Shown here piece after piece: positions 1,810 through 34,365 of a stretch of DNA of 64,000 nucleotides. Origin of the DNA: a virus; IMG/VR virus record IMGVR_UViG_3300027969_002424, positions 62,001 through 126,000 of that record. The stretch is one strand, 5' to 3'. The translations under genes were made by a program, and so were the position numbers. Each line of letters opens with the position of its first letter. The stretch's first letter is position 1. Under the pieces are notes generated by a model. It was not told where the DNA came from, did no database searches, and saw nothing but the letters and a program-made list of their open reading frames with translations.

Positions 1810-1932
1810 TTATTTGCTCCGAATCCATTCGCCTGCTTTAGTCAAGTCTGACCCAGCACCACTGACTGCACCACCAACAGTACCACATGCGGTAAGCATA
1901 CTTAACAAGAATGCAATAACAATAACTTTCAT
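1810..1932 (-). CDS. Entericidin-like small lipoprotein
   Basis: A 40-residue protein with a hydrophobic signal and a lipobox LTAC; Cys16 would be lipidated after cleavage by signal peptidase II. The mature part is Gly/Ala rich (GTVGGAVSGAGSDL) and ends in a short amphipathic stretch TKAGEWIRSK. This layout is that of the entericidin EcnA/EcnB family, small bacterial envelope lipoproteins tied to stress and lysis. The start has a GGAG ribosome site 7 bases upstream. A lipid-anchored peptide from a phage may affect the host envelope. The family match is by pattern only. Confidence 0.65.
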   Translation of the reverse strand: MKVIVIAFLLSMLTACGTVGGAVSGAGSDLTKAGEWIRSK

Positions 1933-1962
1933 ATTAACTCCAAAATGATTTGAATGCGAACA

Positions 1963-2607
1963 TTATACTACAGAAAGGACTTTTACCCTATTTAATTGGG
2001 TAACATTGTCACGGTGAACTTTGACAGTACCATAAAGGTCATACATCTTGCCCACTTCTAATGGTTGTTTGAATGCAAAGAATAGAACCTGATCATCACT
2101 AGTGATACCAGTGATGTAGTTTGTGTTCCAATTTTGCGAATAGAAAGATTTGAGTACCTCAATCGTAGGGGATACTTTGTTACCCACAACGCTAATGTAC
2201 CCGCCCTTAGCGAAACTGATACGCTGATCCACAGTCTGGCGTTTCATGCCGCGCTCGTAGCCTGAGGGCAAACTAGTGATTACTGCAAGGTCGTAATTGG
2301 TATCAATGATTTCACGATTGGCAAGTAGCATTGCAGTGTTGTCAAATTCAGACAACTTAATACCTTTAAGAATTTTGAATGTAAATCCTTGATAGAATTT
2401 GCGAACCAATTTACCTTGTTCACGATCCTCGTCGGTGATTTGAGTAGTGTCGGCAAGAAATTTTGTTACCAAATTGCGGTTTGTTTGCCCTGCAGGAGCA
2501 TCTTCACTAACCTTGATGTAGCCTTGATTCAATCGTTGTGCCTGGCAAGCAGCGGCCCAAACATCATCGGCAGCAAGATTGAGGGGTACAGGTTTTTTAT
2601 AAGCCAT
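1963..2607 (-). CDS. Hypothetical phage protein, 214 residues
   Basis: A soluble protein of unknown function. It has an Asp/Lys-rich middle and a C-terminal beta-rich segment (VGKMYDLYGTVKVHR followed by LNRVKVLSVV) that could be an OB-like or other small beta barrel, though this is only an impression. The start at 2607 has an AAGGAATAAAA leader identical to the one in front of the fibre gene at 32288. It is a single gene between the lipoprotein operon and the next hypothetical. No membrane segment or catalytic motif is visible. Confidence 0.7.
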   Translation of the reverse strand: MAYKKPVPLNLAADDVWAAACQAQRLNQGYIKVSEDAPAGQTNRNLVTKFLADTTQITDEDREQGKLVRKFYQGFTFKILKGIKLSEFDNTAMLLANREIIDTNYDLAVITSLPSGYERGMKRQTVDQRISFAKGGYISVVGNKVSPTIEVLKSFYSQNWNTNYITGITSDDQVLFFAFKQPLEVGKMYDLYGTVKVHRDNVTQLNRVKVLSVV

Positions 2608-2626
2608 TTTTATTCCTTAAACAGTT

Positions 2627-2962
2627 TTATACTTTACGAAACAGACGATAAGTAACACCCTGTGCAGTCTTGCACTTTTCAAAATCTTCGTTTGCATAGC
2701 AAGTTTCTAGCATTGTTAGGCCCTTGCGATCACGCACGGTGGGCTTCTCTACTTTGACGCTGATAAATGTTTTGCGAAATTCAATATAAACTCTATCAGC
2801 ACTATAGACCATTTCTAGGCCCAATTTGACTTGTTCAGCACGAATTTTTTGGATTTCAGTAAACAAAGAACTGTTCACTATACTACGCATTCTTGCATCA
2901 CGTTCAGCAAACCACGCAAAATTGCCAGCAGATTTGTGTTTAGTTTCTTTTTCAATCATCAT
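2627..2962 (-). CDS. Hypothetical phage protein, 111 residues
   Basis: A basic, soluble protein of unknown function. It begins with a polar stretch and contains FAWFAERDARMRSIVNSSLF, then beta-like segments (VYIEFRKTFISVKVE) and ends KTAQGVTYRLFRKV. It sits directly behind a consensus sigma-70 promoter (2995-3023) and has an ACGGAG ribosome site. Two ATGs (2962 and 2959) follow each other, and either could start it. The strong promoter suggests high early expression. Confidence 0.7.
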   Translation of the reverse strand: MMIEKETKHKSAGNFAWFAERDARMRSIVNSSLFTEIQKIRAEQVKLGLEMVYSADRVYIEFRKTFISVKVEKPTVRDRKGLTMLETCYANEDFEKCKTAQGVTYRLFRKV

Positions 2963-2994
2963 ATAAACTCCGTTTGTTGACTGTCTAAGATTGT

Positions 2995-3023
2995 ATTATA
3001 TACCCAAAACCATTTAATGTCAA
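2995..3023 (-). promoter_or_regulatory. Sigma-70 promoter, first copy of a 50-bp duplicate
   Basis: Reads TTGACA, 17 bases, TATAAT on the minus strand, both boxes perfect. The -35 overlaps the stop codon of the upstream gene. It drives the 111-residue gene at 2962. The surrounding 50 bases (2977-3026) recur at 3287-3336 with one mismatch. Confidence 0.9.
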
Positions 3024-3271
3024 CCGGGAAGATTCTCTCCAGTATCAGTGTCGATCTGTCCAGTGACAAAGGCAAAGCCTGTAGGAGTATCTGGGTAGTT
3101 GTAGAAGTGCTCACGGTTGTAAACTGCCGCATATCCATATGCCTCATCTTGGGCTGCTCCTAGATATACTTCACCTTCAACCGCGAACTCTCGCTCGCTT
3201 AGGACCTTGTAGAAATCGGGTCGGGCAGTCTCGGGATTGACCCGGTATACTTGAACATTCCAAACGATCAT
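3020..3271 (-). CDS. Hypothetical phage protein, 83 residues
   Basis: A small soluble acidic protein rich in Tyr and Glu (EVYLGAAQDEAYGYAAVYNREHFY). I chose ATG 3271 because GGAG lies 7 bases upstream; an in-frame TTG at 3283 overlaps that ribosome site. It follows the second copy of the duplicated promoter (3305-3333), so it and its neighbour at 2962 each have their own identical strong promoter. Function unknown. Confidence 0.7.
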   Translation of the reverse strand: MIVWNVQVYRVNPETARPDFYKVLSEREFAVEGEVYLGAAQDEAYGYAAVYNREHFYNYPDTPTGFAFVTGQIDTDTGENLPG

Positions 3272-3304
3272 AATTAACTCCAATAATTGACTGTCTAAGA
3301 TTGT

Positions 3305-3333
3305 ATTATATACCCAAAACCATTTATTGTCAA
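3305..3333 (-). promoter_or_regulatory. Sigma-70 promoter, second copy of a 50-bp duplicate
   Basis: TTGACA, 17 bases, TATAAT on the minus strand, in front of the 83-residue gene at 3271. The 50 bases 3287-3336 match 2977-3026 at 49 positions; the only difference lies next to the -35 box. Confidence 0.9.
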
Positions 3334-3337
3334 CCGT

Positions 3338-3592
3338 TTATTTCATTAGTAGGCCCATCAGAATTAGCTTTTCCAAGTGGTCTATCGCTTTATTAATGTT
3401 GTCAACTTGAGTTTGGGTATAATCTGTACTGCGAATTCTACGACCATTTACTTCAAGTTTGCTTAGTTCGGTCACCATAACTTGAATATTATCATACATC
3501 TTTTTCAAGTCTGGATTGTAACCCATGCGGTGTAGATCAGTCTTTAGTCTATCTGATACTTCTTGCCAATCTAGTGCTGTTTGGATTTTCAT
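3338..3592 (-). CDS. Hypothetical phage protein, 84 residues
   Basis: A small helical protein (MKIQTALDWQEVSDRLK at the start, then KKMYDNIQVMVTELSKLEV and a helix around VDNINKAIDHLEKLI). I chose ATG 3592, although the frame is open further upstream, because a perfect promoter lies just before it (-10 ending 7 bases from the A of ATG). The message is therefore probably leaderless, with no ribosome site. Function unknown; it could be a small DNA-binding or host-takeover protein, but no clear motif supports this. Confidence 0.7.
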   Translation of the reverse strand: MKIQTALDWQEVSDRLKTDLHRMGYNPDLKKMYDNIQVMVTELSKLEVNGRRIRSTDYTQTQVDNINKAIDHLEKLILMGLLMK

Positions 3593-3598
3593 ATTGTT

Positions 3599-3627
3599 AT
3601 TATAATACCTTTTGGTATTTATGTCAA
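3599..3627 (-). promoter_or_regulatory. Sigma-70 promoter with palindromic spacer, probably leaderless
   Basis: TTGACA, 17 bases, TATAAT on the minus strand. The spacer holds the inverted repeat ATACC-4-GGTAT (3605-3618), a possible operator. The ATG at 3592 begins 7 bases after the -10, where the transcript would normally start. Confidence 0.85.
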
Positions 3628-3641
3628 GGATGTTGTACAAA

Positions 3642-3649
3642 CATAAATA
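3642..3649 (+). promoter_or_regulatory. Candidate late promoter motif (CATAAATA)
   Basis: An octamer similar to T4 late promoters, on the plus strand, 5 bases before the proposed GTG start of the amidotransferase-like gene. That is too close to leave a leader if used, so its role is doubtful. Confidence 0.2.
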
Positions 3650-3654
3650 AGATT

Positions 3655-4299
3655 GTGAAACCCACAATCGCATTATTCTTGTACGACCCGAAATGCTCCG
3701 TCCAATCAGGAAACGGGATGATGAAGGCTTTAAGTGAGTATTATAACTTCAAAATCTTTAGTAAAAATAAGTTAGAATACGATTTCTTTGACGGGGTAGA
3801 TATGATTGCTGTTCCGGGAGGGATCGGGGATAGTGATACATTCAAACAACTTTTCAAAAACAACGGAAAACGAGTAAAAGATTTCATCCATGGTGGCGGT
3901 AGATACTTAGGTATCTGTATGGGTGCATATTGGGCAGGTAGTCATTACTTGAATGTACTAGATGATGTTGATGCGGTACAGTATATCAAACAACCTGGTA
4001 CTGATACACGTAGACCACATGCTAAAAACTTAGCAATAACATGGAAAGACGAACCCATGAACATGTTCTTCTATGATGGGTGTTCGCTAGTTGGCAATAG
4101 ACACAAATTCAGAACGGTCGCTACATACGCAAATGGTGATGCGATGGCTATCTATCAAAAACGCATAGGACTGATTGGTTGTCATCCTGAAAGTGAACAG
4201 TTTTGGTATGATAGCTACAGCTACATGAAGGGCAAGTGGCACGGCGGCGAGCAGCACGAATTGTTGTTAGATTTCACTAACGATTTAATGAATAGGTAA
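3655..4299 (+). CDS. Class I glutamine amidotransferase-like protein (BPL_N/DJ-1 type)
   Basis: A 214-residue protein of the glutamine amidotransferase fold. The nucleophile elbow GRYLGICMGAYWAG has Cys88, and GCHPESEQF supplies His177 and Glu179, completing a Cys-His-Glu triad. An earlier VPGGIGD loop (about 53-59) is the usual oxyanion region. The GICMGAYWAG form resembles the N-terminal domain of some biotin-protein-ligase proteins (BPL_N), whose activity is not well defined. I start it at GTG 3655; the frame is open to 3574 but that stretch overlaps the divergent promoter. It is one of only three plus-strand genes here. Substrate unknown; no synthase partner is visible. Confidence 0.75.
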   Translation: MKPTIALFLYDPKCSVQSGNGMMKALSEYYNFKIFSKNKLEYDFFDGVDMIAVPGGIGDSDTFKQLFKNNGKRVKDFIHGGGRYLGICMGAYWAGSHYLNVLDDVDAVQYIKQPGTDTRRPHAKNLAITWKDEPMNMFFYDGCSLVGNRHKFRTVATYANGDAMAIYQKRIGLIGCHPESEQFWYDSYSYMKGKWHGGEQHELLLDFTNDLMNR

Positions 4300-4303
4300 T
4301 ACC

Positions 4304-4600
4304 CTATTCTAGATCCTTGTCTCTGATCTTAAATCCTTCACCATTGTTCAATACACACGCCATAGTCTTGTCATATTGAACTACAGTCCAAGTGAGGGTC
4401 TCAGTATTGATCATCACAACGGTTTGAGTATCAGAGTATTTGCTATCTCCAACCCAGATTATTTTCTCTTTGGCCATCTTGGTTAGTGCCTCAAGAACAA
4501 ATTTAGTTTTTCCGCAAGTTAATTTTCTGTCATACTCTGCTAGTTGGGCAAATGAAATAGTGGTTGTTAGGCATAACAATGCCAATATTAGGTGACGCAT
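4304..4600 (-). CDS. Exported small protein
   Basis: A 98-residue protein with a clear signal peptide (MRHLILALLCLTTTISFAQ, cleavage likely after Ala18). The mature part is about 80 residues with two cysteines (in LTCGKTKFV and MACVLNN) that could form a disulfide in the periplasm. A strong GGGGG-containing ribosome site precedes the start. It is convergent with the amidotransferase-like gene; the two stop codons sit in a 7-base inverted repeat (GAATAGG/CCTATTC near 4290-4310). Function unknown. Confidence 0.75.
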   Translation of the reverse strand: MRHLILALLCLTTTISFAQLAEYDRKLTCGKTKFVLEALTKMAKEKIIWVGDSKYSDTQTVVMINTETLTWTVVQYDKTMACVLNNGEGFKIRDKDLE

Positions 4601-4621
4601 GGATTCCCCCTTTGTTGTCTG

Positions 4622-4629
4622 TATTTATT
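4622..4629 (-). promoter_or_regulatory. Candidate late promoter motif (AATAAATA)
   Basis: Lies 22 bases upstream of the exported-protein start on the minus strand. Same core as the motifs in front of structural genes; weak evidence on its own. Confidence 0.3.
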
Positions 4630-4636
4630 GTCATAA

Positions 4637-4658
4637 TAGTGAAATAAAAATTTCACTA
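4637..4658. promoter_or_regulatory. Perfect 9-bp inverted repeat, possible operator
   Basis: TAGTGAAAT, a 4-base A loop, ATTTCACTA. It lies in the 79-base divergent gap between the exported-protein gene and the plus-strand membrane-protein gene. The symmetry suits a dimeric regulator; as RNA it would form a short hairpin ahead of the membrane-protein gene. Confidence 0.4.
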
Positions 4659-4679
4659 AATAGTAAAATGGGGTAAACT

Positions 4680-5291
4680 ATGAAAGAAATACTAGAGACA
4701 TTAAGAGTGCAACGCTGGGACGATCATCGCTATTATCATCACAGCAGGATAAATCAATTTTTGCATTTAATTAGTGCATTATCATTCATAGTAGCATATG
4801 CTTATCTATTCATTGATCCCGTAATTAGTGCTTACATCGCGTGGTTTATCTCAATGACTACAAGACAAGCAGGACATTTCTTCTTTGAACCCAAAGATTA
4901 CGACACATACAATCAGGCCACACAAGATCATAAAGAGGCTATCAAGATTGGATACAATCTCAAACGCAAACGAGTATTGATCGCTTGCTGGTTGGCTGTG
5001 CCGTTGCTGGCATACTTTGATGCGGCATTGTTTAACTTTGTGATGCCAGACGCTGCACCAGACACACTAATAGATAGGATTGGTTGGGGTTGGTTATGGT
5101 TAGGATTAGCAGCAGTTGTGTTTAGAATGATACAACTTACTGCTATTCAAAGCCGCAAAGTAGCACTAGTATGGTGCTTAAAGATAATGACAGATCCATT
5201 CCATGATGCTGTCATCTATCGCAAGAGTCCATTATATCTGATGCGTGGGCAGTTGATTGATCCTGACTTGCGTCAAGATTATGAAGATTAA
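4680..5291 (+). CDS. Multi-pass membrane protein, possibly DUF962/Mpo1-like
   Basis: A 203-residue protein with at least four hydrophobic segments (about 28-45, 48-60, 98-118 and 136-158). The N-terminal part has histidine motifs YYHHSRINQFLHLIS and RQAGHFFFEP, which recall the His-containing motifs of the DUF962/Mpo1 family (yeast Mpo1 is a fatty-acid alpha-oxidation dioxygenase). The similarity is from memory and loose. The gene is convergent with the glycosyltransferase gene (4-base overlap), so a lipid-related role would fit the neighbourhood. GGGG precedes the ATG. Confidence 0.7.
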   Translation: MKEILETLRVQRWDDHRYYHHSRINQFLHLISALSFIVAYAYLFIDPVISAYIAWFISMTTRQAGHFFFEPKDYDTYNQATQDHKEAIKIGYNLKRKRVLIACWLAVPLLAYFDAALFNFVMPDAAPDTLIDRIGWGWLWLGLAAVVFRMIQLTAIQSRKVALVWCLKIMTDPFHDAVIYRKSPLYLMRGQLIDPDLRQDYED

Positions 5292-6286
5292 AGCGGAGTA
5301 AGATTGTCGCGGAATATCTTCCAGGCTCTCTCCCAACTCCAACGCTGGCTACCTTCTAATACTCTATCTCTATCTAATTGTAGGCAACCAGTTATAGCAT
5401 CAGCTAGGTTCTCATTCACAAATCCAGTGACACCTTGCTCAACAACATCTAATGGTCCTAGCACAGGGTATGCTGCTACAGGAGTGCCGCAGGCCATGGC
5501 TTCAATCATCACAATGCCAAATGTTTCCCACCGTGAAGGAAACACAAACACATCAGCATCAGCATAGCATTGTGCTAGAGCGAAGCCGGTCTTGAATCCT
5601 TTGAACTCCACATCAGGATATAGTTTTTCCAGTCTAGCACGATCCGGCCCGTCACCTACTAATACTTTGCGAGCACCAGGATAATCCAAACTGCAAAACG
5701 CATCCAGATTCTTTTCTATGCTGAGTCTGCACACACACAACAGCACAGGACCGGTGCCTCTGCTGCCGCGATAACCGGGATTAAATATGCTTCGGTCAAC
5801 GCCGCGGGTCCATGAGTTGATCTCGCCCCAGAAGCCATGTTCTTTCAGTTCCTTCACCATACTATCTGTAGTAGTCAATACACGACCACTATGTTTGTGA
5901 AACCATCTCACATATTTCCAAGTTATAGATTGTGGTATCCTTAGATACTTATGTAAGGCTTCAGGATACTTTGTATGATAAGCAGTATTATACCTACGAT
6001 AGTGCCGGTCAAGATAAAATCTAGCGTAGAGACCAAGAGGACCCTCTGTGGCGATGTGTATATAATCCGGAGCCACCGCCCTAATCTTCTCCCCAATCTT
6101 CCAGGGAATCGAAATTTTAACTTCACTGTAGCCTGGGCAATCAAAAAATAGGAACTCCATGGGAGTAAGGAAAACAACACGATAGTCGTCCAGAACCGCA
6201 CACGCCTCAATATTCTTATATGTAGTGACAACGCCATTTATTTGCTCTGGTAAGTTATCCGTTATTATCAGTATCGTCTTGATCAT
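5288..6286 (-). CDS. GT4-type glycosyltransferase, candidate Agt lipid glycosyltransferase
   Basis: A 332-residue retaining GT-B glycosyltransferase. The N-terminal domain has the acceptor loop EQINGVVTTY (14-23). The C-terminal domain has RLSIEKNL (187-194), GDGPDRARLE (211-220) and the EX7E nucleotide-sugar motif in ETFGIVMIE (254-262). Its start overlaps the metallophosphoesterase by 32 bases. In phosphate-starved bacteria a phospholipase C (PlcP) next to a glycosyltransferase of this family (Agt) turns phospholipids into glycolipids; the same order appears here, and PstS is one gene upstream. Alternatives are an alpha-mannosyl- or glucosyltransferase for another lipid or surface glycan. 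Family call firm, substrate inferred. Confidence 0.85.
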   Translation of the reverse strand: MIKTILIITDNLPEQINGVVTTYKNIEACAVLDDYRVVFLTPMEFLFFDCPGYSEVKISIPWKIGEKIRAVAPDYIHIATEGPLGLYARFYLDRHYRRYNTAYHTKYPEALHKYLRIPQSITWKYVRWFHKHSGRVLTTTDSMVKELKEHGFWGEINSWTRGVDRSIFNPGYRGSRGTGPVLLCVCRLSIEKNLDAFCSLDYPGARKVLVGDGPDRARLEKLYPDVEFKGFKTGFALAQCYADADVFVFPSRWETFGIVMIEAMACGTPVAAYPVLGPLDVVEQGVTGFVNENLADAITGCLQLDRDRVLEGSQRWSWERAWKIFRDNLTPL

Positions 6287-7028
6287 TTTCTCTAGTCCAT
6301 GTAACTATTTCCCACTTACCATCATGATGCTCTACCAATGCTGTGCATGACTCTACCCAGTCACCGTCGTTCATGTAAGTGATTCCATCTATATCTTTGA
6401 TTTCAGCATGGTGAATATGTCCACATATAACCCCATCAAAGCCTCGCTTCTTACAGTACTTAGCGAGGTTGTGTTCAAAGTGAAAAATAAAATCAACAGC
6501 TTTTTTCACACGCTGTTTCAAATACTGACTAAGACTCCAATAACCAAATCCCATCTTATGTCTTATCCAATTGAATCTGCTATTCCATGCTAGGATAGTA
6601 TCGTATGCATAATCTCCTAAGAAACTTATCCAAGGTGCTAGTCTAGTTATACCATCAAACAAATCTCCATGCACTACAAGATAATGCTTGCCATCTGCAC
6701 CTATATGTTCTATCTGATTGTGTATCTCAACGAGTCCAAAACTGAATCCATATGGAATCATCGGGCGTAGAAATTCATCGTGATTACCAGCAACATATAT
6801 AACTCTTGTTCCACGTTTAGCGTGACCAAGAACACGACGGACTACATTAGTGTGACTCTGCTTCCAACGCCATTTATTTTGTTGGATACGCCATGCATCA
6901 ATTATATCCCCTACTAGATATAGTGTATCGCATGAGTTATGCTTTAGAAAGTTGTTGAGTTTGTCAGCTTGACAATCTTTGGTTCCTAAATGCACATCAG
7001 AGATAAAAATTGATCTATATGTTTTCAT
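6255..7028 (-). CDS. PlcP-type metallophosphoesterase (candidate phospholipase C)
   Basis: A 257-residue calcineurin-like phosphoesterase. Metal ligands are visible in order: SDVHLG (Asp11, His13), VGDIIDAW (Asp41), GNHDEF (Asn82, His83), VVHGDLFDG (His120) and CGHIHHAEI (His204, His206). It would be annotated automatically as UDP-2,3-diacylglucosamine diphosphatase, but true LpxH carries GNRDF, whereas this has GNHDEF as in the COG2908 relatives that include PlcP. PlcP removes the phosphate head group of phospholipids to give diacylglycerol. It overlaps the glycosyltransferase and follows the pstS terminator with only a weak ribosome site. Family call firm; PlcP role inferred from context. 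Confidence 0.85.
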   Translation of the reverse strand: MKTYRSIFISDVHLGTKDCQADKLNNFLKHNSCDTLYLVGDIIDAWRIQQNKWRWKQSHTNVVRRVLGHAKRGTRVIYVAGNHDEFLRPMIPYGFSFGLVEIHNQIEHIGADGKHYLVVHGDLFDGITRLAPWISFLGDYAYDTILAWNSRFNWIRHKMGFGYWSLSQYLKQRVKKAVDFIFHFEHNLAKYCKKRGFDGVICGHIHHAEIKDIDGITYMNDGDWVESCTALVEHHDGKWEIVTWTRENDQDDTDNNG

Positions 7029-7040
7029 TATTATTATTCT

Positions 7041-7065
7041 AATAAAAAAGAGCCTTTCGGCTCTT
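7041..7065 (-). terminator. Rho-independent terminator after pstS
   Basis: On the minus strand AAGAGCC-GAAA-GGCTCTT followed by TTTTATT. It lies 45 bases after the pstS stop and only 13 before the plcP-like start, so the lipid pair is expressed by read-through or from an unseen promoter. Confidence 0.85.
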
Positions 7066-7110
7066 AGTGCTGGTTACGAGTTCCAGCCTCCTCTCTATCT
7101 TGAGGTCGGT

Positions 7111-8106
7111 TTAAAATAATCCTAGTTGTTTCCAATCAGAACGAATCTTAGCTTTGACTGCTGCCGGTAATGCAACATAGTCTAACTCATCTGCGGCTTT
7201 GTCGCCATTATTGAAAGCCCAATCAAAGAATGTTAGAGCAGTTTTAGATGCAGCAACATCACCTGGCTTTACATAAACAAGAATGAATGTAGCACCACTG
7301 ATAGGCCATGCTTCTTTGCCTGCTTGATTAGTCAATATCTGATAGTAACTCTTGTTCCAGTCAGCGTTAGCAGCGGCTGCTTTGAATGCATCTTCTGTAG
7401 GTGCTACCCAATTGCCTGCTGCATTCTGCACATTGACCCAGTTCATCTTGGCTTGTTTTACATAAGCATATTCAACATAGCCCAATGCCCCCGGAAGTTG
7501 GCGAACCATAGCAGAAACGCCTTCGTTACCCTTACCACCTGCTCCTGTTTTCCAACTAACAGCAGTGCCTTCACCGATTGTATCTTTGAACTCTTTGCTG
7601 ACTTTGCTCAAGTAGTTGGTCCAGATGAATGTTGTGCCACTTCCATCTGCACGGCGAACCACTGTGATAGCTTGATCGGGCAATGCTAGTGACGGGTTCA
7701 ATGATTTGATAGCAGCATCATCCCAACGGGTGATCTTGCCCAAGAAGATATCAGCCATGACTGCACCTGTCAAGCGTAGTTGTCCGGGCTCAATTCCTTT
7801 GAGGTTGATTACCGGAACAACTCCACCAATTGCTGTAGGAAACTGAAACAAGCCTGATGCTTGAAGTTTGTCATCGGTGAGTGGCATGTCACTTGCACCG
7901 AACGTGACGGTCTTTGCTTCAATCTGCTTGATGCCTGCGCCTGAACCAACTGATTGATAGTTGATCTTGATGTTGGTAGACTTGTTATATTCACTCGCCC
8001 ACTTTGCATATAACGGAGCCGGGAATGTTGCCCCGGCTCCTGTAATCTCTTGTGCTGATGCAGCGAATGCTATCACTGCCAATAATGTTGTAAACAGTTT
8101 TTTCAT
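7111..8106 (-). CDS. pstS: Phosphate-binding protein PstS
   Basis: The periplasmic phosphate receptor of the Pst ABC transporter. It has 331 residues with a signal peptide (MKKLFTTLLAVIAFAASAQ). Phosphate-binding segments are present: ITGAGATFPAPLYAKW near the mature start, GSGAGIKQ, FGASDMPL, RRADGSGTTFIW and GNEGVSAMV. I use ATG 8106 because AAGGAGA precedes it; an upstream in-frame start at 8130 has none. A PhoB-type box lies 32-49 bases upstream. No PstCAB genes are present, so the protein must load the host transporter. The sequence looks betaproteobacterial. Phage PstS is known from cyanophages; here it sits in a different host setting. Confidence 0.96.
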   Translation of the reverse strand: MKKLFTTLLAVIAFAASAQEITGAGATFPAPLYAKWASEYNKSTNIKINYQSVGSGAGIKQIEAKTVTFGASDMPLTDDKLQASGLFQFPTAIGGVVPVINLKGIEPGQLRLTGAVMADIFLGKITRWDDAAIKSLNPSLALPDQAITVVRRADGSGTTFIWTNYLSKVSKEFKDTIGEGTAVSWKTGAGGKGNEGVSAMVRQLPGALGYVEYAYVKQAKMNWVNVQNAAGNWVAPTEDAFKAAAANADWNKSYYQILTNQAGKEAWPISGATFILVYVKPGDVAASKTALTFFDWAFNNGDKAADELDYVALPAAVKAKIRSDWKQLGLF

Positions 8107-8137
8107 GTAATCTCCTTGTGTGTTACACAAATATTTA

Positions 8138-8213: not shown

Positions 8214-9113
8214 TTAGAAATTGAATTCTACGCCTACACCGTATTGATTAATATCAGTAGCAGCATCTAGGTAACTCCAACGAGCATTGAATGTCAATGC
8301 TTTGTTCATCGCATAGCTTACACCCAAACCACGACCGGTCACGCTAGTGTTAGTCTGACCATATGTACCTTGAACTGCAAAACGATCACCGATTGCTTGG
8401 CTGATACCAACGCTAGAACCTGTGGTGCTTACATTAGATACCTTGTCATCGCTATACATTCCGAACACTGTAGTTCCAGTACTAACCAATTTGTATTTCA
8501 CACCAACGATAGTGCTGAGACTGGTGCTGCTGTCATCATAACGAGCGACTGTAGCAGACATAGGTCCCAAAGTGTAGCTGATGCTACCAGTCTGAACATT
8601 AGTAGTTCCAGCAGTTTCGCTATTAGCCATCACATATTGTCCTGTGAAGCCAGCGATACTTGCTGTGTTCACGAACAAACCATTTTGCAAACGACTGCCT
8701 TGTGCAGAGTGAATGGTAGCGGCAATAGTGCCATACGCATTGTCAAATGCGTCATAGTTATCCAACACACGAACTACACTGTGCTTGTCACGACCCATGC
8801 CTAAAGAACCTAAATTATTGCTCAAGCTAAAGAGTGAAGTACGATCACCTAAAGTGGTAGCACTTGGTGCGTCCATTGCTACGCCAGTTTCGATGATAAC
8901 GGCAGCGGTGATTCCATCACCAACATCACTAGAGGCTTTTACACCTAAGCGGCTTGAGTCATTGGTCAACCGAGTGAGGGCACTAGCGGTACCAGCTGTG
9001 TATGATTCTTGATACTCACGTACTTTGCCATAGACGCTGACTTGGGGAGCGGTTTGTGCTAGCACAAAACCTGAGGCCAATGCTAGGGCCAAGAGTAAAG
9101 CATATTTCTTCAT
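8214..9113 (-). CDS. Gram-negative outer-membrane porin, short form
   Basis: A 299-residue protein with a signal peptide (MKKYALLLALALASGFVLA), a first strand QVSVYGKVREY, the characteristic SSRLGVKASSDVGDG turn, alternating beta strands, and a C-terminal strand ending VGVEFNF, where the terminal Phe is the BAM signal. It belongs to the betaproteobacterial trimeric porin family (Porin_4/Gram-negative porin), whose bacterial members are usually 330-390 residues, so loops are probably trimmed. It has its own sigma-70 promoter and terminator. It could admit phosphate or other solutes alongside PstS, or replace host porins and alter phage receptors. Ion selectivity cannot be read. Confidence 0.92.
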   Translation of the reverse strand: MKKYALLLALALASGFVLAQTAPQVSVYGKVREYQESYTAGTASALTRLTNDSSRLGVKASSDVGDGITAAVIIETGVAMDAPSATTLGDRTSLFSLSNNLGSLGMGRDKHSVVRVLDNYDAFDNAYGTIAATIHSAQGSRLQNGLFVNTASIAGFTGQYVMANSETAGTTNVQTGSISYTLGPMSATVARYDDSSTSLSTIVGVKYKLVSTGTTVFGMYSDDKVSNVSTTGSSVGISQAIGDRFAVQGTYGQTNTSVTGRGLGVSYAMNKALTFNARWSYLDAATDINQYGVGVEFNF

Positions 9114-9246: not shown

Positions 9247-9270
9247 AAAAAGACACCTAAGTGTCTTTTT
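9247..9270. terminator. Terminator after pqqA (symmetrical)
   Basis: AAAAAGACAC-CTAA-GTGTCTTTTT, a perfect 10-bp inverted repeat with T runs on both strands. It lies 16 bases after the pqqA stop and upstream of the porin promoter, isolating pqqA as its own unit. Confidence 0.9.
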
Positions 9271-9285
9271 TGGTTAATATGTGAA

Positions 9286-9360
9286 TTAACGATTAGCAAT
9301 ATACATGGTAATTTCAAAACCGAAACGCATATCGCTTGCTTGAGGGGTAGTCCATTTCAT
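9286..9360 (-). CDS. pqqA: PQQ precursor peptide PqqA
   Basis: A 24-codon gene, easily missed. The peptide begins MKWTTPQASDMRFG and ends FEITMYIANR. PqqA peptides follow the pattern W-x-x-P...D-x-R-x-G-[FL]-E-[VI]-T-x-Y...NR, in which the Glu and Tyr three residues apart are cross-linked by PqqE and cut out to make pyrroloquinoline quinone. Here they are Glu16 and Tyr20, in the correct register. A TAGGAGA ribosome site lies 6 bases upstream, and a strong terminator follows. No pqqB, C, D or E gene is in the window, so host enzymes would have to process it. PQQ is the cofactor of methanol and other alcohol dehydrogenases. Confidence 0.9.
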   Translation of the reverse strand: MKWTTPQASDMRFGFEITMYIANR

Positions 9361-9463
9361 AATTGTTCTCCTATATCAAATTGACATTGTATATATCGTT
9401 TATATGTGTTGCCATAACCTAAATAACATAGTGAAAAGTATGAATCTTTATTAGTGTTACTAC

Positions 9464-9489
9464 TAATAAGAAACCCGCCGAAGCGGGTT
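9464..9489 (-). terminator. Rho-independent terminator after ssrA
   Basis: On the minus strand AACCCGC-TTCG-GCGGGTT then TCTTATT. It lies just beyond the coding piece of the permuted tmRNA. Confidence 0.9.
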
Positions 9490-9491
9490 CT

Positions 9492-9942: not shown

Positions 9943-10079
9943 ACGTTCTCCTCTGATAATTTGCCACAATGTGGACAATATAACTTCTTTGGTTTCCACG
10001 CTTCCATAGTAGCGATACTAAACCACCCTTTACACTCAGCACAAGTGAAATGATAGATGGTTTCTTTTTCTACATTCAT
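9933..10079 (-). CDS. Small zinc-ribbon protein, 48 residues
   Basis: The frame gives MNVEKETIYHFTCAECKGWF at the start and later YCPHCGKLSEEN. Two CxxC knuckles (Cys13/Cys16 and Cys35/Cys38) about 19 residues apart are a typical zinc ribbon. Proteins of this kind in phages often bind nucleic acid or RNA polymerase, but nothing here says which. Its ATG shares one base with the stop of the preceding membrane-protein gene (TGATG), and it overlaps the next gene by 10 bases, so all three are translationally coupled. Confidence 0.75.
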   Translation of the reverse strand: MNVEKETIYHFTCAECKGWFSIATMEAWKPKKLYCPHCGKLSEENVCL

Positions 10080-10270
10080 CAAACAAAACTTAGATGTCCA
10101 GTAGCATATAACACTGCCATCACTGGCCCTGCAATATGTTCACCAATCTCATACAATGCCCAGACAGTCAATGCGACCGCCCACCATGGATTAGTTTCGG
10201 CTTTGTGTCCTAACCACATGAAAAACTTTCCATGTAATTGTCCTATCTTGTTTGCGAATTTGACTATCAT
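10079..10270 (-). CDS. Small membrane-associated protein, 63 residues
   Basis: Starts MIVKFANKIGQLHGKFFMWLGH and has a hydrophobic segment from about 30 to 58 (WWAVALTVWALYE, then IAGPVMAVLYATG). I chose ATG 10270: it begins 7 bases after the -10 of a consensus promoter, so the message is probably leaderless. An alternative in-frame GTG at 10285 would lie inside the promoter. It starts the operon of two further small genes and possibly ssrA. Function unknown. Confidence 0.65.
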   Translation of the reverse strand: MIVKFANKIGQLHGKFFMWLGHKAETNPWWAVALTVWALYEIGEHIAGPVMAVLYATGHLSFV

Positions 10271-10276
10271 GTATTT

Positions 10277-10306
10277 ATTATACACTTTTAAATTCTAGTT
10301 TGTCAA
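10277..10306 (-). promoter_or_regulatory. Sigma-70 promoter of the small-gene/ssrA unit, probably leaderless
   Basis: TTGACA, 18 bases, TATAAT on the minus strand, inside the end of the upstream radical SAM gene. The first ATG is 7 bases after the -10, the same spacing as at 3599-3592. Confidence 0.8.
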
Positions 10307-12485
10307 ATTTAATGGGTGTATAATGTTTTGGAGATGTAGTATGTGAATTAGGAACAGCTACGTTATATCTTTCAGGATTTGCCCATGAACCAGTATCTTG
10401 CCATTTATGTTTAAATGAGAAATCAATTGTACTATTTAAATGTCTTTCTTCTGCAATTAACTCCATGAATTCTTCGTGATTTCTGCCACCGTCTCCCCAC
10501 TTTGGTTTAGCTAGTTTTCTAGCACGAATGGATGCATTAGATTGTTGTCTAGAATAATCTTGTGCAAAAAACGGAGATTTTGCCGATAAAGGATCTACTG
10601 GATCGATAATAGTGACCGGTTGTTGATAGTAATAATCAAAATCTGCTTCCCAATTACCTTCATCATCTATTGTAAAATTATGATTAGCCCAATAAGGGCC
10701 GGCATTTCTTTCACCAAATTCTATCATATCTAAATCTTGATCAAATTTAATTGTAGCAGTAAATCCTCCTCGTGTACGCCATAGTATTCTAAACAATGTA
10801 AATATTTCATTTACTAAACTATCAGCAAAGGGATTGATGTCAGGATGTATTATATTGTAATCAAAGTTTTCATATTCAATTTCTTTTTGCATTGTAGGAT
10901 CATCAAACACAATTTTATAATGATGCATTGGCAAATTACCACGCTGCGGGATTGAAACTGATTTTTCAGTTAACAAATGCTGCAAGAATACTGCAAATAC
11001 TTTCATCCTAACCATGACATGAAATTTAGAAAGTTTGAAATCTTTAGTTATCCATCCACCTGCATACTTGTGTGCTAGTAAATTAAACTTATCAGGATTT
11101 TGTCCAACAATAGTATCCATACCTAAACCAAATCCAAATCCAGCAGCAATATTAGCTATGTTGTTATTTCTATTACGCCATAAAAAAGTCATTGTATCTG
11201 CAAAATTTTGATATGATTCTGTTGGGAACCCTACTATCCAATTGGTAAAAGCATTTACTCCAGTTTTCTTCCCATCTATAAAGTTTTGTTCCATTTCAGC
11301 AATAGTAACACCTTTGTCAATATCATCTAGTACAGGCTGACTTCCAGACTCTATGCCATAGTTTAACATATGACAACCTGAATCAGCTAAATCTTGATAG
11401 AATGCTAAATCCATTCGTCCATCACATCTTGCATATCCAGTCCAATGAATTTTCATACCTTTAGCAATGACTCCTTTGCAGAAGGCTCTAAGTTCATTTA
11501 GATTTCCATTTACCAAACTATCAATAAACCAAACTATGTCAGTTCCTTTTTCATAGTATAATGTTTCTATTTCTTTTAGAATATCAGTAGCCATGCGTTG
11601 ACGATATTTCCAAAAATGTGTTTCTTCACAAAAGGTGCATTTTGCAGTACAACCTCTACTCAGTTCACTATTAACTCCATTTGGAAATTCATATTCATTG
11701 AAATCAAAATTAGAATAATCAGGCATAGGCAAGTCATTCAAATTTAATCTTTGTTCTTCAGGTTGTGCTAGCTTTTGAACCTTGTCGTGAATTATTCCGT
11801 TTTCAATTTCTTCTAAAATTTCTAAAAGAAGTAATTCACCTTCCCCATTGATAACATAATCAAACATATTATCATCTTCTCCACTCCAAGCATGTGGTTC
11901 TTGGCAAGGTCTAATATTAGGACCACCTACTAGTATTTTAATATTTGGCAATCTTTCTCTTAATTTTTTCACCATATACTTAACTGGTTCTGCATTTGTA
12001 TAGTACATAGTAAATCCTATAACGTCAGGAGGATTTTTAACAATCTGTTCTATGTATTTGTTTAATAAAATGCTCAGATGCGGATGTATATCACTATGGT
12101 AGTCTTTTGCTAACCATTTCCAATCTCTTGCGCCGTCCCACGGGTCGAAATCAATAAGTCCATCATTTCGCCATTTGTGAGATAAGTTATATGCCTTTAC
12201 ATTCAAATCAATACAATTAGATTCATATCCAGCGCCTTTTGCAACCGCAGACAGTCTTGCAAGATTGAACGGTGGAAACATTGGTGCCCATTCTGGACAA
12301 AGTATTAATAATAACTTTGTTTTTCTATACGCATAGTTGATATCAATAGTAGTTACATTTTTTTGAACTTTAGTTTTTGCATAAGGTGCAATAGCTTGCA
12401 ACATAGCCAGATGCTTAATATCAGCGTCAGGCTCTAGTGGTCTTGATTCCACTATCTTTTTTTTATATTGATATAATTCACTCAT
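10278..12485 (-). CDS. B12-binding radical SAM protein, 735 residues
   Basis: Residues about 55-230 form a cobalamin-binding-like Rossmann domain (KLLLILCPEWAPMFPPFN, then DVIGFTMYYTN and ILVGGPNIRP). The radical SAM motif RGCTAKCTFC gives Cys279, Cys283 and Cys286 for the [4Fe-4S] cluster. The core continues with DIVWFIDSLVNG and a GIESGSQ motif. A C-terminal region of about 250 residues is unassigned. Such proteins carry out methyl transfers or other radical changes on unreactive carbons. It starts 8 bases inside the end of the repeat-protein gene and is the last gene of the modification cluster. Substrate unknown. Confidence 0.9.
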   Translation of the reverse strand: MSELYQYKKKIVESRPLEPDADIKHLAMLQAIAPYAKTKVQKNVTTIDINYAYRKTKLLLILCPEWAPMFPPFNLARLSAVAKGAGYESNCIDLNVKAYNLSHKWRNDGLIDFDPWDGARDWKWLAKDYHSDIHPHLSILLNKYIEQIVKNPPDVIGFTMYYTNAEPVKYMVKKLRERLPNIKILVGGPNIRPCQEPHAWSGEDDNMFDYVINGEGELLLLEILEEIENGIIHDKVQKLAQPEEQRLNLNDLPMPDYSNFDFNEYEFPNGVNSELSRGCTAKCTFCEETHFWKYRQRMATDILKEIETLYYEKGTDIVWFIDSLVNGNLNELRAFCKGVIAKGMKIHWTGYARCDGRMDLAFYQDLADSGCHMLNYGIESGSQPVLDDIDKGVTIAEMEQNFIDGKKTGVNAFTNWIVGFPTESYQNFADTMTFLWRNRNNNIANIAAGFGFGLGMDTIVGQNPDKFNLLAHKYAGGWITKDFKLSKFHVMVRMKVFAVFLQHLLTEKSVSIPQRGNLPMHHYKIVFDDPTMQKEIEYENFDYNIIHPDINPFADSLVNEIFTLFRILWRTRGGFTATIKFDQDLDMIEFGERNAGPYWANHNFTIDDEGNWEADFDYYYQQPVTIIDPVDPLSAKSPFFAQDYSRQQSNASIRARKLAKPKWGDGGRNHEEFMELIAEERHLNSTIDFSFKHKWQDTGSWANPERYNVAVPNSHTTSPKHYTPIKFDKLEFKSV

Positions 12486-21980: not shown

Positions 21981-23225
21981 TTATATCCAATAATCTTTCA
22001 TATACGGTATATAATCAAATATATTTCTATTACGATGCTTATCTAATGACGTAACAAATTTTTGCATTTCTAACCACTTATTGATTCGCAACTCGCTATC
22101 AACTTGTTTGTTTATTACAGTATTAAGTATGTTATTAATTGCCGAAGTGTACTTATCTCCTAAATTGCGTTCAGCAGATAATTGAATTACTCGTTGTAGA
22201 GTATCTTTAGCTTTCTCTTTCATCTCATTTGGCATGTATATAGGATCAAAATAGTCAGGGTTATTAACACATTGTATGTGCGGGAGACTTTTTAATATGC
22301 TTGAATTAGTTTCAATCTGAGTTTCCCACCAATCAATTAAAGTATCCAATGTGAGCAGGTTCAATGAGATTACAGTATGACTTAATCCAATATGGTAATT
22401 GCCATGCTGTTTAGCAATTTCTTTTAAATTATCTAACTGTGATGTTACCTTATTCCAACTGAAGGGGTATCTAATATATTCATTAATAGGACCTACTCCA
22501 TCTACACTAATAGTAATATGCTTAGTACTAAAGTGACTCCACAACTCTAACAATTCATCTGAGACTCCAGTCAAATTAGTTACATATCCTAATGTTATAT
22601 TTTTTGCTCTACCTTGGTCAATCAATCGTTTTAATAAAAATATATGTGGTTCATTGATTGTAGGTTCGCCGCCTAAAAACTGTATAGCACTAAGGTTAGG
22701 TAAGTTATCAATCAAGTTAGGTATATTTTCTTCAGTAAACCAGTTTGGAGTAATCCAATCCATTTTTTCACCAGTGATAATCTCTTGTTCTTTTTTCCAA
22801 AGTGAACTAGCAGATTCATTACACATTAAACATGCACTATTACATTTATTACCCACTGTTATATCTAATAAAAATATATTAGATAAGTCAGGTATAGTAG
22901 CAGTAGCAGTATGAAGATTTTTATTTAATCTAGATTCCACACTATCTAACGTATTATTGAATATTTGTCTGGTACTAGCTTGTCCATGCTGTTCTCTAGT
23001 ACGACACATGTTACATATAGGATCCCATTTACCATCTAGTAGTTTTGTTCTTAGCGATACTAACTCATCATTGTTAAACCATTTTACTACATTATTATCA
23101 TAGTTCTTTAGTTGATGCCGTGTTTGCCCGGGCCAAAAATAAGTATCTACTGCACAACAAGGTCTTATGGTTCCGTCGTATCCAAAACTTATAGAATTTG
23201 ATGCTAGCGCACAATACAGTGACAT
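21981..23225 (-). CDS. Radical SAM protein with N-terminal twitch domain (array member 5)
   Basis: 414 residues. The order is reversed compared with ordinary SPASM enzymes: first a cysteine region (GTIRPCC at 23-24, then ICNMC at 71-74) that would hold an auxiliary iron-sulfur cluster, then the radical SAM motif GNKCNSACLMC (Cys128, Cys132, Cys135), then LGGEPT (GGEP motif) and SVDGVGPINEYIRYPF. This is the N-twitch radical SAM layout. It is the last of five consecutive radical SAM genes. The start carries an AGGAAATTTAA leader. Confidence 0.9.
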   Translation of the reverse strand: MSLYCALASNSISFGYDGTIRPCCAVDTYFWPGQTRHQLKNYDNNVVKWFNNDELVSLRTKLLDGKWDPICNMCRTREQHGQASTRQIFNNTLDSVESRLNKNLHTATATIPDLSNIFLLDITVGNKCNSACLMCNESASSLWKKEQEIITGEKMDWITPNWFTEENIPNLIDNLPNLSAIQFLGGEPTINEPHIFLLKRLIDQGRAKNITLGYVTNLTGVSDELLELWSHFSTKHITISVDGVGPINEYIRYPFSWNKVTSQLDNLKEIAKQHGNYHIGLSHTVISLNLLTLDTLIDWWETQIETNSSILKSLPHIQCVNNPDYFDPIYMPNEMKEKAKDTLQRVIQLSAERNLGDKYTSAINNILNTVINKQVDSELRINKWLEMQKFVTSLDKHRNRNIFDYIPYMKDYWI

Positions 23226-24197
23226 TTAAATTTCCTTTGTAATAAGTATATCGGTTCCGCATGTACATTGCTGCTTTTTACATATCACTGGTTCTGCTAC
23301 TGTAGTAACAGTATCATATATATTACCCAATGAAGGGCCTTGCCCACAACTTGCAGCAGTTATATGTCCAGTACTATTTATAAACAAACTTTCATCAACA
23401 TAGCATTTCCATCCTGAAAAGAAATTTTTACGTTCTGCCACCAGTCTATTACCGTTCAACGGTTGCTCTGTTTCAGACTCATATACTTCTTTGCTTGCAG
23501 TTCGCCATTTACTTCCATTTGGCTTACTAATTTTAGTTTGTGATTCAAATGTATGTGTCTCAAAGAATTCATACATTCTAGGTTCACTGTATTTCCATGG
23601 ACCCACATTGACACTAATGTCATCAAACAATGGCACCCATTCTAAATTATAATTTTGTAAAATAGATTTTACTCTTTCCCCAAACTCAACAACTTCATCA
23701 AATCTATTTTCTTGCATCATCATTCTACAGCATAGATAATTTACCTTATCTTGTAAAAAAATCAAGTTGTCTAAGTACCTAGGAGTATTTGCAAAATCAA
23801 TATGATAGCTAGCTACAACGTCATGGAACAAGTGATAATTCTCTTTCCACCAGTTAGTGCTAGTACTCAAATTAGTATTGATTGCAATTTGCGGGTCATC
23901 TAGTCGTTCTTTTAACCATTTAATCAATGGTAATAAATGAGGCCAAACAGTAGGCTCTCCCCCACTAAAGAAGAATTTAAATCCTTTATATCCCCTAGCT
24001 TCTTGTGCAGTTAAAATTATGTTTAAATTGTCTACTATCTTATCAAAATCTTTTGGCTCATTCTTCTTAGGATTTTTGCCTGCCCAGTTACCAGGATTGC
24101 AATAACTACATTTAAAATTACAGAAGTCACTTACTTGCCAGGTTATATTGATATACGGAGTTTCTACCGGTCTTATCGCTATCAATTTATCATTCAT
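23226..24197 (-). CDS. Radical SAM protein with C-terminal cysteines (array member 4)
   Basis: 323 residues, the shortest of the five and the only one with conventional order. The motif DFCNFKCSYCNPG near the start gives Cys26, Cys30 and Cys33. FFSGGEPTVWP follows. The C-terminal part has GHITAASCGQG and KKQQCTCG, an auxiliary-cluster-like cysteine set. It is adjacent to its neighbours with a 4-base overlap upstream and no gap downstream. CNPGNWAG after the cluster motif is also seen in a similar form (CHPKYSTSF) in array member 1. Confidence 0.9.
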   Translation of the reverse strand: MNDKLIAIRPVETPYINITWQVSDFCNFKCSYCNPGNWAGKNPKKNEPKDFDKIVDNLNIILTAQEARGYKGFKFFFSGGEPTVWPHLLPLIKWLKERLDDPQIAINTNLSTSTNWWKENYHLFHDVVASYHIDFANTPRYLDNLIFLQDKVNYLCCRMMMQENRFDEVVEFGERVKSILQNYNLEWVPLFDDISVNVGPWKYSEPRMYEFFETHTFESQTKISKPNGSKWRTASKEVYESETEQPLNGNRLVAERKNFFSGWKCYVDESLFINSTGHITAASCGQGPSLGNIYDTVTTVAEPVICKKQQCTCGTDILITKEI

Positions 24198-25555
24198 ATG
24201 ATATCCTTAAACAATTCAGTACCTTTCAAATTACGATGCTTGTCATTAAACTCAATAAAATGTTTTAATCTGTCACTCAACTCGCTATTGTATGGAGAAT
24301 TTAATACTGAATCTTTATACGCATTAAAAGTATGGTCATCAACTACAAATCTATTTGGGGCGTCATTGTAATATTTTCTATAATTCATTGATTGTTTGGT
24401 AACTATTTCAATATATTCTTCTCTAATGTTTTTAGGAATAGCGTTCAATGAAAGAAATTCAGGTGCAGATAAAGTTATAGGCCACCACGTTATGTGTTTA
24501 TCATGTTTAGAAGATAGCAAATACAACATACTCCAAATTGACATAACATGCTTAAAATTCATAGCTTGTAGTACAGTATAGCATTTTATCTTCCAACCTG
24601 GTCGAGTTGATGCTAACTCAACTGCTTTATCTACGTTTTCTCTAACTTTGGCAAAGTCACTAGGATACCTAATATATTCACCTACTTCACCAACCCCGTC
24701 AATACTCATCTGTATTTCAACGTTTTTAAATTTTTCTAACTTACTATAGAATGATTGATTCCAAGTTGTCATATTACTAGTAAATTCTATTTGGCAGTCT
24801 GTGTTATTTGCTTCCAATAACATTTCAAACATTTTGTAATTAGCTTTAATTAAGGTAGGTTCACCGCCGGTAGTATATAATCTACGCAAAGTAGGAGCCA
24901 TCTTTTTAAAATTGTTGTAAAATATTTCAGTTTCAAACCAATCACGAACATCAGTCTCATTAACTATTTGTTGTTCTGTTTTCCACTTTGACTTTAACCA
25001 ACTTAATTTTGGATTATCTAAATAATTTTTATCTAAATATTCTGTTCTTTCTTGATGTATCAAAGAACTACTCATGCCCCAACAACTAACACATTGTAAG
25101 TTACATTGATTGCCTAATCTAAGTTCCAGGCTAACAGGTAATTGTGGTACTGATTGTTTTTCTAAATTTGCATCTAAATAATTAGATAACAATTTATCTT
25201 TTTGTATATATGACAACCACATTGCATTTTGACCCATTCTAGGACTATGTCCTGATAGTTTTTCTATTTTGTAGCAATCTTGACAATCAGGAGCACCTTC
25301 TCCTTTTATTTTTCTTTCTCTAACATATTGCATATAAATGCTGTCCCATATTTCATCAATGTCATGGTATCCTAAATTGTAAGATTTAGCATTTTTATCT
25401 GAGACAAAGGTATCTAAAGGAATACTACAGCATAGTTTTATATTACCGTTTGGGTTAGTGTTTAAATTTAACCATGGCAAAGTACAAAATTTATCTACAC
25501 TTTTAATAGCCCAATCAAGTTTTTTAGTAACTGGTGCAGTTTCTAATTCATTCAT
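24194..25555 (-). CDS. Radical SAM protein with N-terminal twitch domain (array member 3)
   Basis: 453 residues. N-terminal cysteines lie in KFCTLPWLN (24), IKLCCSIP (42-43) and PDCQDCYKI (91, 94); the radical SAM motif GNQCNLQCVSCWG gives Cys151, Cys155 and Cys158. TTGGEPTLIKANY and MSIDGVGEVGEYIRYP follow. The phrase DGVG..EYIRYP is shared with array members 1 and 5 in variant forms, so these are paralogues. The start codon is coupled to the upstream stop through a duplicated 20-base segment (see 25544). Confidence 0.9.
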   Translation of the reverse strand: MNELETAPVTKKLDWAIKSVDKFCTLPWLNLNTNPNGNIKLCCSIPLDTFVSDKNAKSYNLGYHDIDEIWDSIYMQYVRERKIKGEGAPDCQDCYKIEKLSGHSPRMGQNAMWLSYIQKDKLLSNYLDANLEKQSVPQLPVSLELRLGNQCNLQCVSCWGMSSSLIHQERTEYLDKNYLDNPKLSWLKSKWKTEQQIVNETDVRDWFETEIFYNNFKKMAPTLRRLYTTGGEPTLIKANYKMFEMLLEANNTDCQIEFTSNMTTWNQSFYSKLEKFKNVEIQMSIDGVGEVGEYIRYPSDFAKVRENVDKAVELASTRPGWKIKCYTVLQAMNFKHVMSIWSMLYLLSSKHDKHITWWPITLSAPEFLSLNAIPKNIREEYIEIVTKQSMNYRKYYNDAPNRFVVDDHTFNAYKDSVLNSPYNSELSDRLKHFIEFNDKHRNLKGTELFKDII

Positions 25556-25589
25556 AATATTTTTAATTCATTCATAATATTTTTAATTC
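25544..25589 (-). repeat. 20-base tandem duplication at a gene junction
   Basis: Two exact 20-base copies (25544-25563 and 25564-25583) plus 6 bases of a third. The unit carries the stop/start junction TTATGAATG. The duplication leaves a complete 7-codon frame MNELKIL (25552-25575) between the two radical SAM genes. Its start overlaps the upstream stop and its stop overlaps the downstream start, so coupling is kept. Confidence 0.9.
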
Positions 25590-26774
25590 CGGATAAATTT
25601 CTATAAATTTTTCATTTCTAACTTCATCAATGACTGTTATTTGTTTTTTAAATTCAGATAACAGATTAGTATGATCTACACTATCCATATAACTTACTAT
25701 TCCTTTTACATCATGTATGATGTTGTCTTTTGCATTATTCTTAACTAACCAATCACAATATTCTTCATACAGTTGTCTAATTTTTTCTTTCTCATCTTCT
25801 GGTAAAATAGTAATTGAAAAGTATCTTGGATGTGTCAAAATATTTATTCGTATGTTATTGATGTCCAATAATCCTTCTTCTACCCATGATTTATGAAACT
25901 CAAACAAACTATGCACACTAAAGATACCTACAGTAGGGGTGATTTCGAAATAAACATCTGGACAAAGCATTATCATTTGTTGTCTGTTTAGTACTATGTC
26001 ATCCCAGTTAGTTCCTTTCCTAGCATATTCAGCTATCTTGCCGTGCGTATCTAAACTAGCAGCGACACGAACATCTTTGAACTTTTTCCAATAATCAAGT
26101 ATAGACTTGTCCTTGTAACGGAAATTACTAAAGTTAGTTGTATATCTTAACTTGATATGTGTAAGACCTTTTGACAACCAGTAATCTAGTATCTCATAAT
26201 GTTGGGGAGTTATCAATGCTTCGCCTCCGGCAAAATACACTTCTTCTATCGTATCTAAATGCGGCATTAAATCATTCATAAAGTTAGGATTAGATTTTAA
26301 ATCAATGAATTTCTTTGTTACTGATTCTGGGTGCAATTTTACTTGATCATCATACCAACTGCTACTCAAGCTAGGACCGCATGTCCTGCATTTCATGTTG
26401 CATAAATTACTGAATCTAATATCTAAGTATCTCATTTTAAAGTCATCAATGCTACCATCTTCTTTAGTTTCAGTTAAGTAAGGTAAATGATTTTTAAAAC
26501 TTTGTAAACTGTTTTTACGCAACGTCCAACTGTCTGCGGTATCTTCTAACTCATAACACCGTGAACATGCTGTAGGTTTTTCTCCATTAAGCATTTGTTT
26601 TCGTATGGTTTTATAGTTGGTATTGTTCATCAAATCATTAAGAGATTCTTTATGAACATTCCCAAATACTTCTTTAGTATCACTCATGCAACATGGAAAC
26701 GCATCGCCGTTAGGCCATATGTGTGTATGTATCCATGGCATCAAACAAATAACATTTTGATCAATATTTTTCAT
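25572..26774 (-). CDS. Radical SAM protein with N-terminal twitch domain (array member 2)
   Basis: 400 residues. N-terminal cysteines lie in VICLMPW (10), AFPCCMSD (28-29) and TACSRCYEL (70, 73); the radical SAM motif SNLCNMKCRTCGP gives Cys125, Cys129 and Cys132. FAGGEALITPQ (GGE motif) and SLDTHGKIAEYARKG follow. The segment CLMPWIHTHIWPNGDAFPCC is the same as the LPWLN..PNGNIKLCC region in member 3, showing common origin. Only the 7-codon bridging frame separates it from member 3. Confidence 0.9.
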   Translation of the reverse strand: MKNIDQNVICLMPWIHTHIWPNGDAFPCCMSDTKEVFGNVHKESLNDLMNNTNYKTIRKQMLNGEKPTACSRCYELEDTADSWTLRKNSLQSFKNHLPYLTETKEDGSIDDFKMRYLDIRFSNLCNMKCRTCGPSLSSSWYDDQVKLHPESVTKKFIDLKSNPNFMNDLMPHLDTIEEVYFAGGEALITPQHYEILDYWLSKGLTHIKLRYTTNFSNFRYKDKSILDYWKKFKDVRVAASLDTHGKIAEYARKGTNWDDIVLNRQQMIMLCPDVYFEITPTVGIFSVHSLFEFHKSWVEEGLLDINNIRINILTHPRYFSITILPEDEKEKIRQLYEEYCDWLVKNNAKDNIIHDVKGIVSYMDSVDHTNLLSEFKKQITVIDEVRNEKFIEIYPELKIL

Positions 26775-32288: not shown

Positions 32289-32297
32289 TTTTATTCC

Positions 32298-33545: not shown

Positions 33546-33568
33546 GCTGAAATTGCTCCGTTATCTGT

Positions 33569-34352: not shown

Positions 34353-34356
34353 ATAT

Positions 34357-34364: not shown

Positions 34365-34365
34365 T

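Follow-up and report, generated by a model that had tools for sequence, protein, structure and literature searches.

The presence of pqqA in phages is, as such, already known. VP_266, a virus of methylotrophs from Lake Baikal, was reported in 2020 to encode PqqA together with a methanol dehydrogenase, and is the published precedent for a virus-encoded PqqA as an auxiliary metabolic gene (PMC7678222); pqqA, pqqD and pqqE of viruses also appear in a list from reservoir sediments published in 2026. In a methylotroph, five copies of pqqA are found, three of them stand-alone (PMC9851590); these chromosomal copies lie apart from pqqBCDE and serve enzymes made elsewhere. A further comparison is offered by nine records of cultured methylophages (P19250A, Venkman, MEP301, MEP401, MEP402 and four of Melnitz), with genomes of 35-44 kb or 141 kb, where a stand-alone pqqA with ATG and ribosome site is found in each copy examined; in the records this gene is unannotated or lies under a 'hypothetical protein', and in those of Melnitz a hypothetical gene is annotated at its place on the opposite strand. 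No mention of it is made in the isolation papers of Melnitz, MEP301 and Venkman.

The window analyzed here is a stretch of 64,000 nucleotides, corresponding to bases 62001-126000 of a viral record of 211,612 bases, and it contains a pqqA gene that resembles those described above in being viral, as in VP_266, and stand-alone, as in the methylophages and in the methylotroph chromosome. Unlike VP_266, the record has no methanol dehydrogenase; differently from the cultured methylophages, the genome is of the jumbo type. The gene is read on the minus strand, from the ATG at 9360 to the TAA ending at 9286, and its reverse complement is translated to MKWTTPQASDMRFGFEITMYIANR; the plus strand of the same interval is not the gene. 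The sequence-only reading had correctly indicated the 24 codons and the spacing of Glu16 and Tyr20, leaving the strand unstated, and the search that it proposed against the family models gave clear results: the peptide scores 38.4 bits with PF08042 (E 5e-10, cut-off 21.1) and 38.1 bits with TIGR02107 (cut-off 20). The cut-offs of both curated models are thus exceeded nearly twofold, which assigns the peptide to the PqqA family; no match was found in PHROGs. It shares with the family the length, the core GFEITMY and the E-x-x-x-Y spacing (Glu16-Ile-Thr-Met-Tyr20), Glu16 and Tyr20 being the residues that PqqE would cross-link; it differs in being encoded by a phage, in a record where PqqD and PqqE are not found. 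The only PF08042 match in the 211,612 bases is this gene, and its presence in the window is confirmed.

Expression signals are also present (Table 1). The ribosome site, which had been judged good from the sequence, is an AGGAG motif 7 nt before the ATG; a possible promoter is found further upstream, and it is only a weak candidate because promoter-like sites occur in the region in about the number expected by chance.

Table 1. Coordinates of pqqA and of the surrounding features in the window; the last line refers to a locus of another virus record
Feature	Position	Strand	Remarks
pqqA	9286..9360	-	24 codons and stop, MKWTTPQASDMRFGFEITMYIANR; PF08042 and TIGR02107 above cut-off
Shine-Dalgarno AGGAG	9368..9372	-	from sequence; ATG 7 nt downstream
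Possible promoter ATGGCA-18-TACAAT	9386..9415	-	weak, 9/12 matches
Hairpin with T run, 3' of pqqA	9247..9271	-	equivalent directly after tmRNA in G003, which lacks pqqA
Terminator-like hairpin between tmRNA and pqqA	9471..9490	-	
tmRNA gene, permuted betaproteobacterial type, tag ANDELYSLAA	9467..9837	-	RF01850 (beta_tmRNA) 155.6 bits, RF04321 (permuted tmRNA) 148.4 bits
Porin-like outer membrane protein, downstream of pqqA	8214..9113	-	right edge of conserved synteny
Block of about 219 bases (pqqA and leader) absent from G003	9271..9489	-	edges ambiguous by a few bases
Methanol dehydrogenase and formate dehydrogenase alpha	L492 (G038 32000-48700) 1990-6784		

The surrounding genes are of phage type. 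Among the products encoded in the window are two baseplate wedge subunits (one matched with 856.9 bits), a hub protein of the baseplate and structural proteins of the virion; in tblastn searches the baseplate protein shares about 33% identity with its counterparts in jumbo phages such as Phosso, Atu_ph07, Munch and BF. On this gene content, pqqA lies in the genome of a jumbo tailed phage, of which the 211,612-base record may be a fragment, since 6,189 of its bases are matched at 100% in a longer contig, of 303,057 bases. An open frame of 6,459 residues adjoins the tail and baseplate genes (34366-53745, minus strand), and the stretch of it that was tested has no match in PHROGs. Close to pqqA, next to the porin-like gene, a PstS-like phosphate-binding protein is encoded (PBP_like_2, 131.6 bits; 7111-8130, minus strand). 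The porin-like protein has no Pfam match, so that its name derives from inspection of its sequence; homologs with 51-68% identity are found at the corresponding position in relatives, whether or not these carry pqqA.

Bacterial contamination or misassembly of the viral record was considered as an explanation, as there is a record where it seems to apply: in the one named Acinetobacter phage MD-2021a (L008, CAKLQF020000010.1), pqqA lies next to a whole pqqBCDE operon. This phage-named record, which also holds a polyphosphate kinase, is probably bacterial DNA. For the window, however, this explanation has a negligible probability and was rejected, being contradicted by the syntenic relatives: the two contigs of 231 and 303 kb (L455 and L456) match the 6,189 bases including pqqA at 100%, the flanks are syntenic with those of phage relatives without pqqA, and complete genomes of cultured phages carry the gene as well. 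The conserved flanks and the structural genes together indicate that a host-type metabolic gene lies inside phage DNA.

The history of the site can be partly read from these relatives. In L464, which is a diverged relative with a porin-like protein 68% identical, pqqA is found at the same site, with four of its 75 bases changed, corresponding to two silent codons and one replacement (S9N). The frame with its Glu and Tyr is therefore kept in related phages, identical in L455 and L456 and with a single residue changed in L464. On the other hand, G003, whose baseplate protein is 82% identical to that of the window, shows the same order of genes (the neighbor corresponding to 10079-10270, tmRNA, hairpin, porin-like gene) around a clean empty site: the tail of the tmRNA runs directly into the hairpin, with flanks that can be aligned left and right of it. 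This vacancy may reflect either a gain in the lineage of the window or a loss in that of G003. G003 and G007, the closest long relatives, have no pqqA, which indicates that the gene is dispensable in this phage group; in L468 and L469 the flanking genes are kept and other genes are found in its place. Thus, pqqA is a discrete, optional unit at this site in this group. The comparison also modifies the proposal that the gene has its own terminator: a hairpin with a T run does follow pqqA, but it is not pqqA's own in origin. Since in G003 the hairpin ends the tmRNA directly, it either predates pqqA at this place or serves both, and it seems better described as a terminator of the tmRNA locus.

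The distribution of viral pqqA is wider than annotation suggests. A tblastn search with the window peptide gave 12 matches among 50,697 phage records, and a second query returned the same 12: nine are the methylophage records mentioned above, one is an environmental podovirus and two resemble a bacterial pqq operon. Further viral copies were sought with two degenerate DNA patterns, each of which matched at least 120 viral stretches, a lower bound for both scans that lies below the true number. An ATG and a purine-rich ribosome motif are present in 142 of the 142 viral copies scored, the motif being found in 10% of random 15-mers. Over 100 distinct sequences, pN/pS is 0.19 for all codons and 0.36 for the codons that the patterns do not fix. 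No variation is seen at Trp, Pro, Arg, Gly, Glu, Thr and Tyr among the viral copies sampled, partly by construction, because the patterns fix much of the core together with the extraction filter, which demanded Tyr or Phe at the Tyr position; the low pN/pS outside the pattern is no artefact of this kind. In L012, L036 and L050, pqqA is found in or beside long tRNA arrays, with 28 tRNA genes in L012 and 24 in L036.

These data bear on the possibility that pqqA is a functionless passenger or relic, acquired by chance beside the tmRNA gene. Its patchy presence among close relatives would be in agreement with this, as would the small size and low cost of the gene. Nevertheless, the start codon, the ribosome site and the low pN/pS across many copies, the same site and frame in the diverged L464, and the occurrence in several unlike phages at differing sites all make this explanation very improbable.

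Partner enzymes for PQQ synthesis were not found with the viral copies searched for them. In model searches, PqqE above cut-off is found in none of 44 virus records with pqqA, as compared with 25 of 27 bacterial genomes with pqqA. Queries from the Acinetobacter operon for PqqB-E gave no tblastn match in the viral loci with pqqA, while 24 to 39 of 119 bacterial loci were matched in the same search; PqqB and PqqC were covered by tblastn in the window and in the other fetched loci. The 211,612-base record, possibly a fragment, contains no PqqD or PqqE, and a complete PQQ pathway is not found there. Several radical SAM proteins are encoded in the window, i.e. one at 10278-12485 and, clustered at 21981-28171, four or more with a twitch domain (all on the minus strand); they were considered as PqqE candidates and discarded, since the first is of the B12-binding type and the four examined in the cluster match N_Twi_rSAM (NF033640). 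The earlier statement that the phage carries the substrate peptide alone is borne out as regards PqqD, PqqE and methanol dehydrogenase, which are all missing from the record.

Membership in the PqqA family, a conserved frame with start and ribosome site, the location in a phage and the absence of PqqD and PqqE from the record are the observed facts; they are best accounted for by a functional phage copy of pqqA, acting as an auxiliary metabolic gene that feeds host PQQ synthesis during infection, and we regard this as the likely explanation. The PqqA made by the phage would be cross-linked at Glu16 and Tyr20 by PqqD and PqqE of the host and finished by other host enzymes. One peptide would be consumed for each PQQ, while the enzymes would turn over many times; given this stoichiometric use, the peptide should be the first component to run short when host gene expression declines, so that the phage would need to bring the peptide alone. 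The product would keep periplasmic quinoprotein dehydrogenases, acting on methanol or on other alcohols or sugars, passing electrons to cytochrome c, and this oxidation would supply energy and carbon for phage production. That a phage pqqA would raise PQQ is consistent with work on Gluconobacter, for which overexpression of pqqA is cited among the single-gene changes altering PQQ (PMC7936290), and a cell extract is cited as having made PQQ from added PqqA with 70-80% conversion (PMC9851590). In engineered strains, pqqAB gives an increase of 29% and pqqABCDE an eightfold one (PMC7936290); PQQ in these strains thus depends also on other genes, and the peptide need not be limiting.

The same lack of enzymes would be expected if the peptide were a decoy, occupying PqqD/PqqE or PqqB and lowering or redirecting the synthesis of PQQ by the host, since host PqqA would then meet a competitor for these enzymes. 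However, Glu and Tyr, which a decoy could lose freely, are retained with the whole core as in host peptides; moreover, the PqqA of P19250A has the same sequence as the most frequent cellular peptide in the sample. A decoy is therefore very improbable, and supply of a functional precursor is preferred.

Genes found close to pqqA in other phages agree with a function in C1 oxidation or in another oxidation by quinoproteins. In L131, a T4-like contig of 45 kb with a T4-type helicase, UvsX, DNA polymerase and tail assembly chaperone, a di-haem cytochrome c, pqqA and a NAD formate dehydrogenase (635.6 bits, cut-off 329) lie in a row on one strand (5474-7488, minus). In G038, which has phage genes for ribonucleotide reductase and DNA ligase and a tail fibre match, a methanol dehydrogenase followed by the formate dehydrogenase alpha subunit (608 and 885 bits, above cut-off) is found a few kb from pqqA; methanol dehydrogenase is present in one of the 43 other virus records with pqqA. 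A small cytochrome c comes immediately after pqqA in L464 (4473-4781, plus strand) and is encoded near it in L113 (2820-3137, plus strand); a search for cytochrome c in the 211,612-base record gave none. A general statistical link between cytochrome c and pqqA is not supported, as L414, where pqqA is not detected, also has a cytochrome c. In the jumbo-phage contig L058 a protein similar to S-adenosylhomocysteine hydrolase is encoded near pqqA (1900-3186, plus strand), named by looking at its sequence.

The type of tmRNA suggests that the host of the window phage is probably a betaproteobacterium; a beta-type tmRNA occurs also in four other loci with pqqA (L036, L068, L074, L107), in the records G029, G031 and G032, and in several relatives. 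Searches with the tmRNA gave best matches of only 76-80% over about 106 bases, with short pieces in named genomes, too little for placing the host more finely than among the betaproteobacteria. The sequence-only reading had mentioned phages of marine methylotrophs, and cultured methylophages do indeed carry pqqA; for the window phage, a marine or methylotrophic host is a possibility. An alternative that keeps the same peptide and chemistry is that the host is a non-methylotrophic betaproteobacterium, using PQQ for another quinoprotein such as an alcohol, aldehyde or sugar dehydrogenase. It would agree with a tmRNA of general betaproteobacterial type, with the absence of methanol dehydrogenase from the record and with the nearest cellular peptides, which show two to three differences over 22 residues and belong mainly to MAGs of Comamonadaceae and other Burkholderiales, not to Methylophilaceae. 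Conversely, Methylophilales or Methylophilaceae are the hosts on record for every phage isolate with pqqA, the viral partners adjoining pqqA, where present, are C1 enzymes, and a peptide of 24 residues is too short to name a host firmly; we thus consider this alternative as plausible but with clearly less than an even chance.

Overall, the interpretation first proposed for the locus, i.e. a phage copy of pqqA supplying the precursor to host enzymes, is supported. In the searchable literature we did not find described the stand-alone precursor as the usual viral form and its generality, the unannotated pqqA of cultured methylophages, a pqqA beside a permuted tmRNA in a jumbo phage, or the empty site. 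Precursor-only supply may be a general and overlooked strategy, in which unlike groups of methylotroph phages independently took pqqA alone, this being the single consumed component of PQQ synthesis, and some added cytochrome c and formate dehydrogenase; we incline slightly towards this broader proposal. Owing to its very small size, the gene went unnoticed in all of the cultured methylophage records found, and the link between methylophages and quinoprotein oxidation is consequently under-reported. As cultured phage-host pairs with pqqA exist (Venkman, Melnitz, MEP301, P19250A), the idea is directly testable. The products of auxiliary metabolic genes are mostly enzymes; in this case the substrate peptide would come from the phage and the enzymes from the host. 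This suggests that cofactor synthesis in infected cells is limited by the supply of its precursor, and it looks like a common, overlooked way for such viruses to sustain the energy supply of their hosts.
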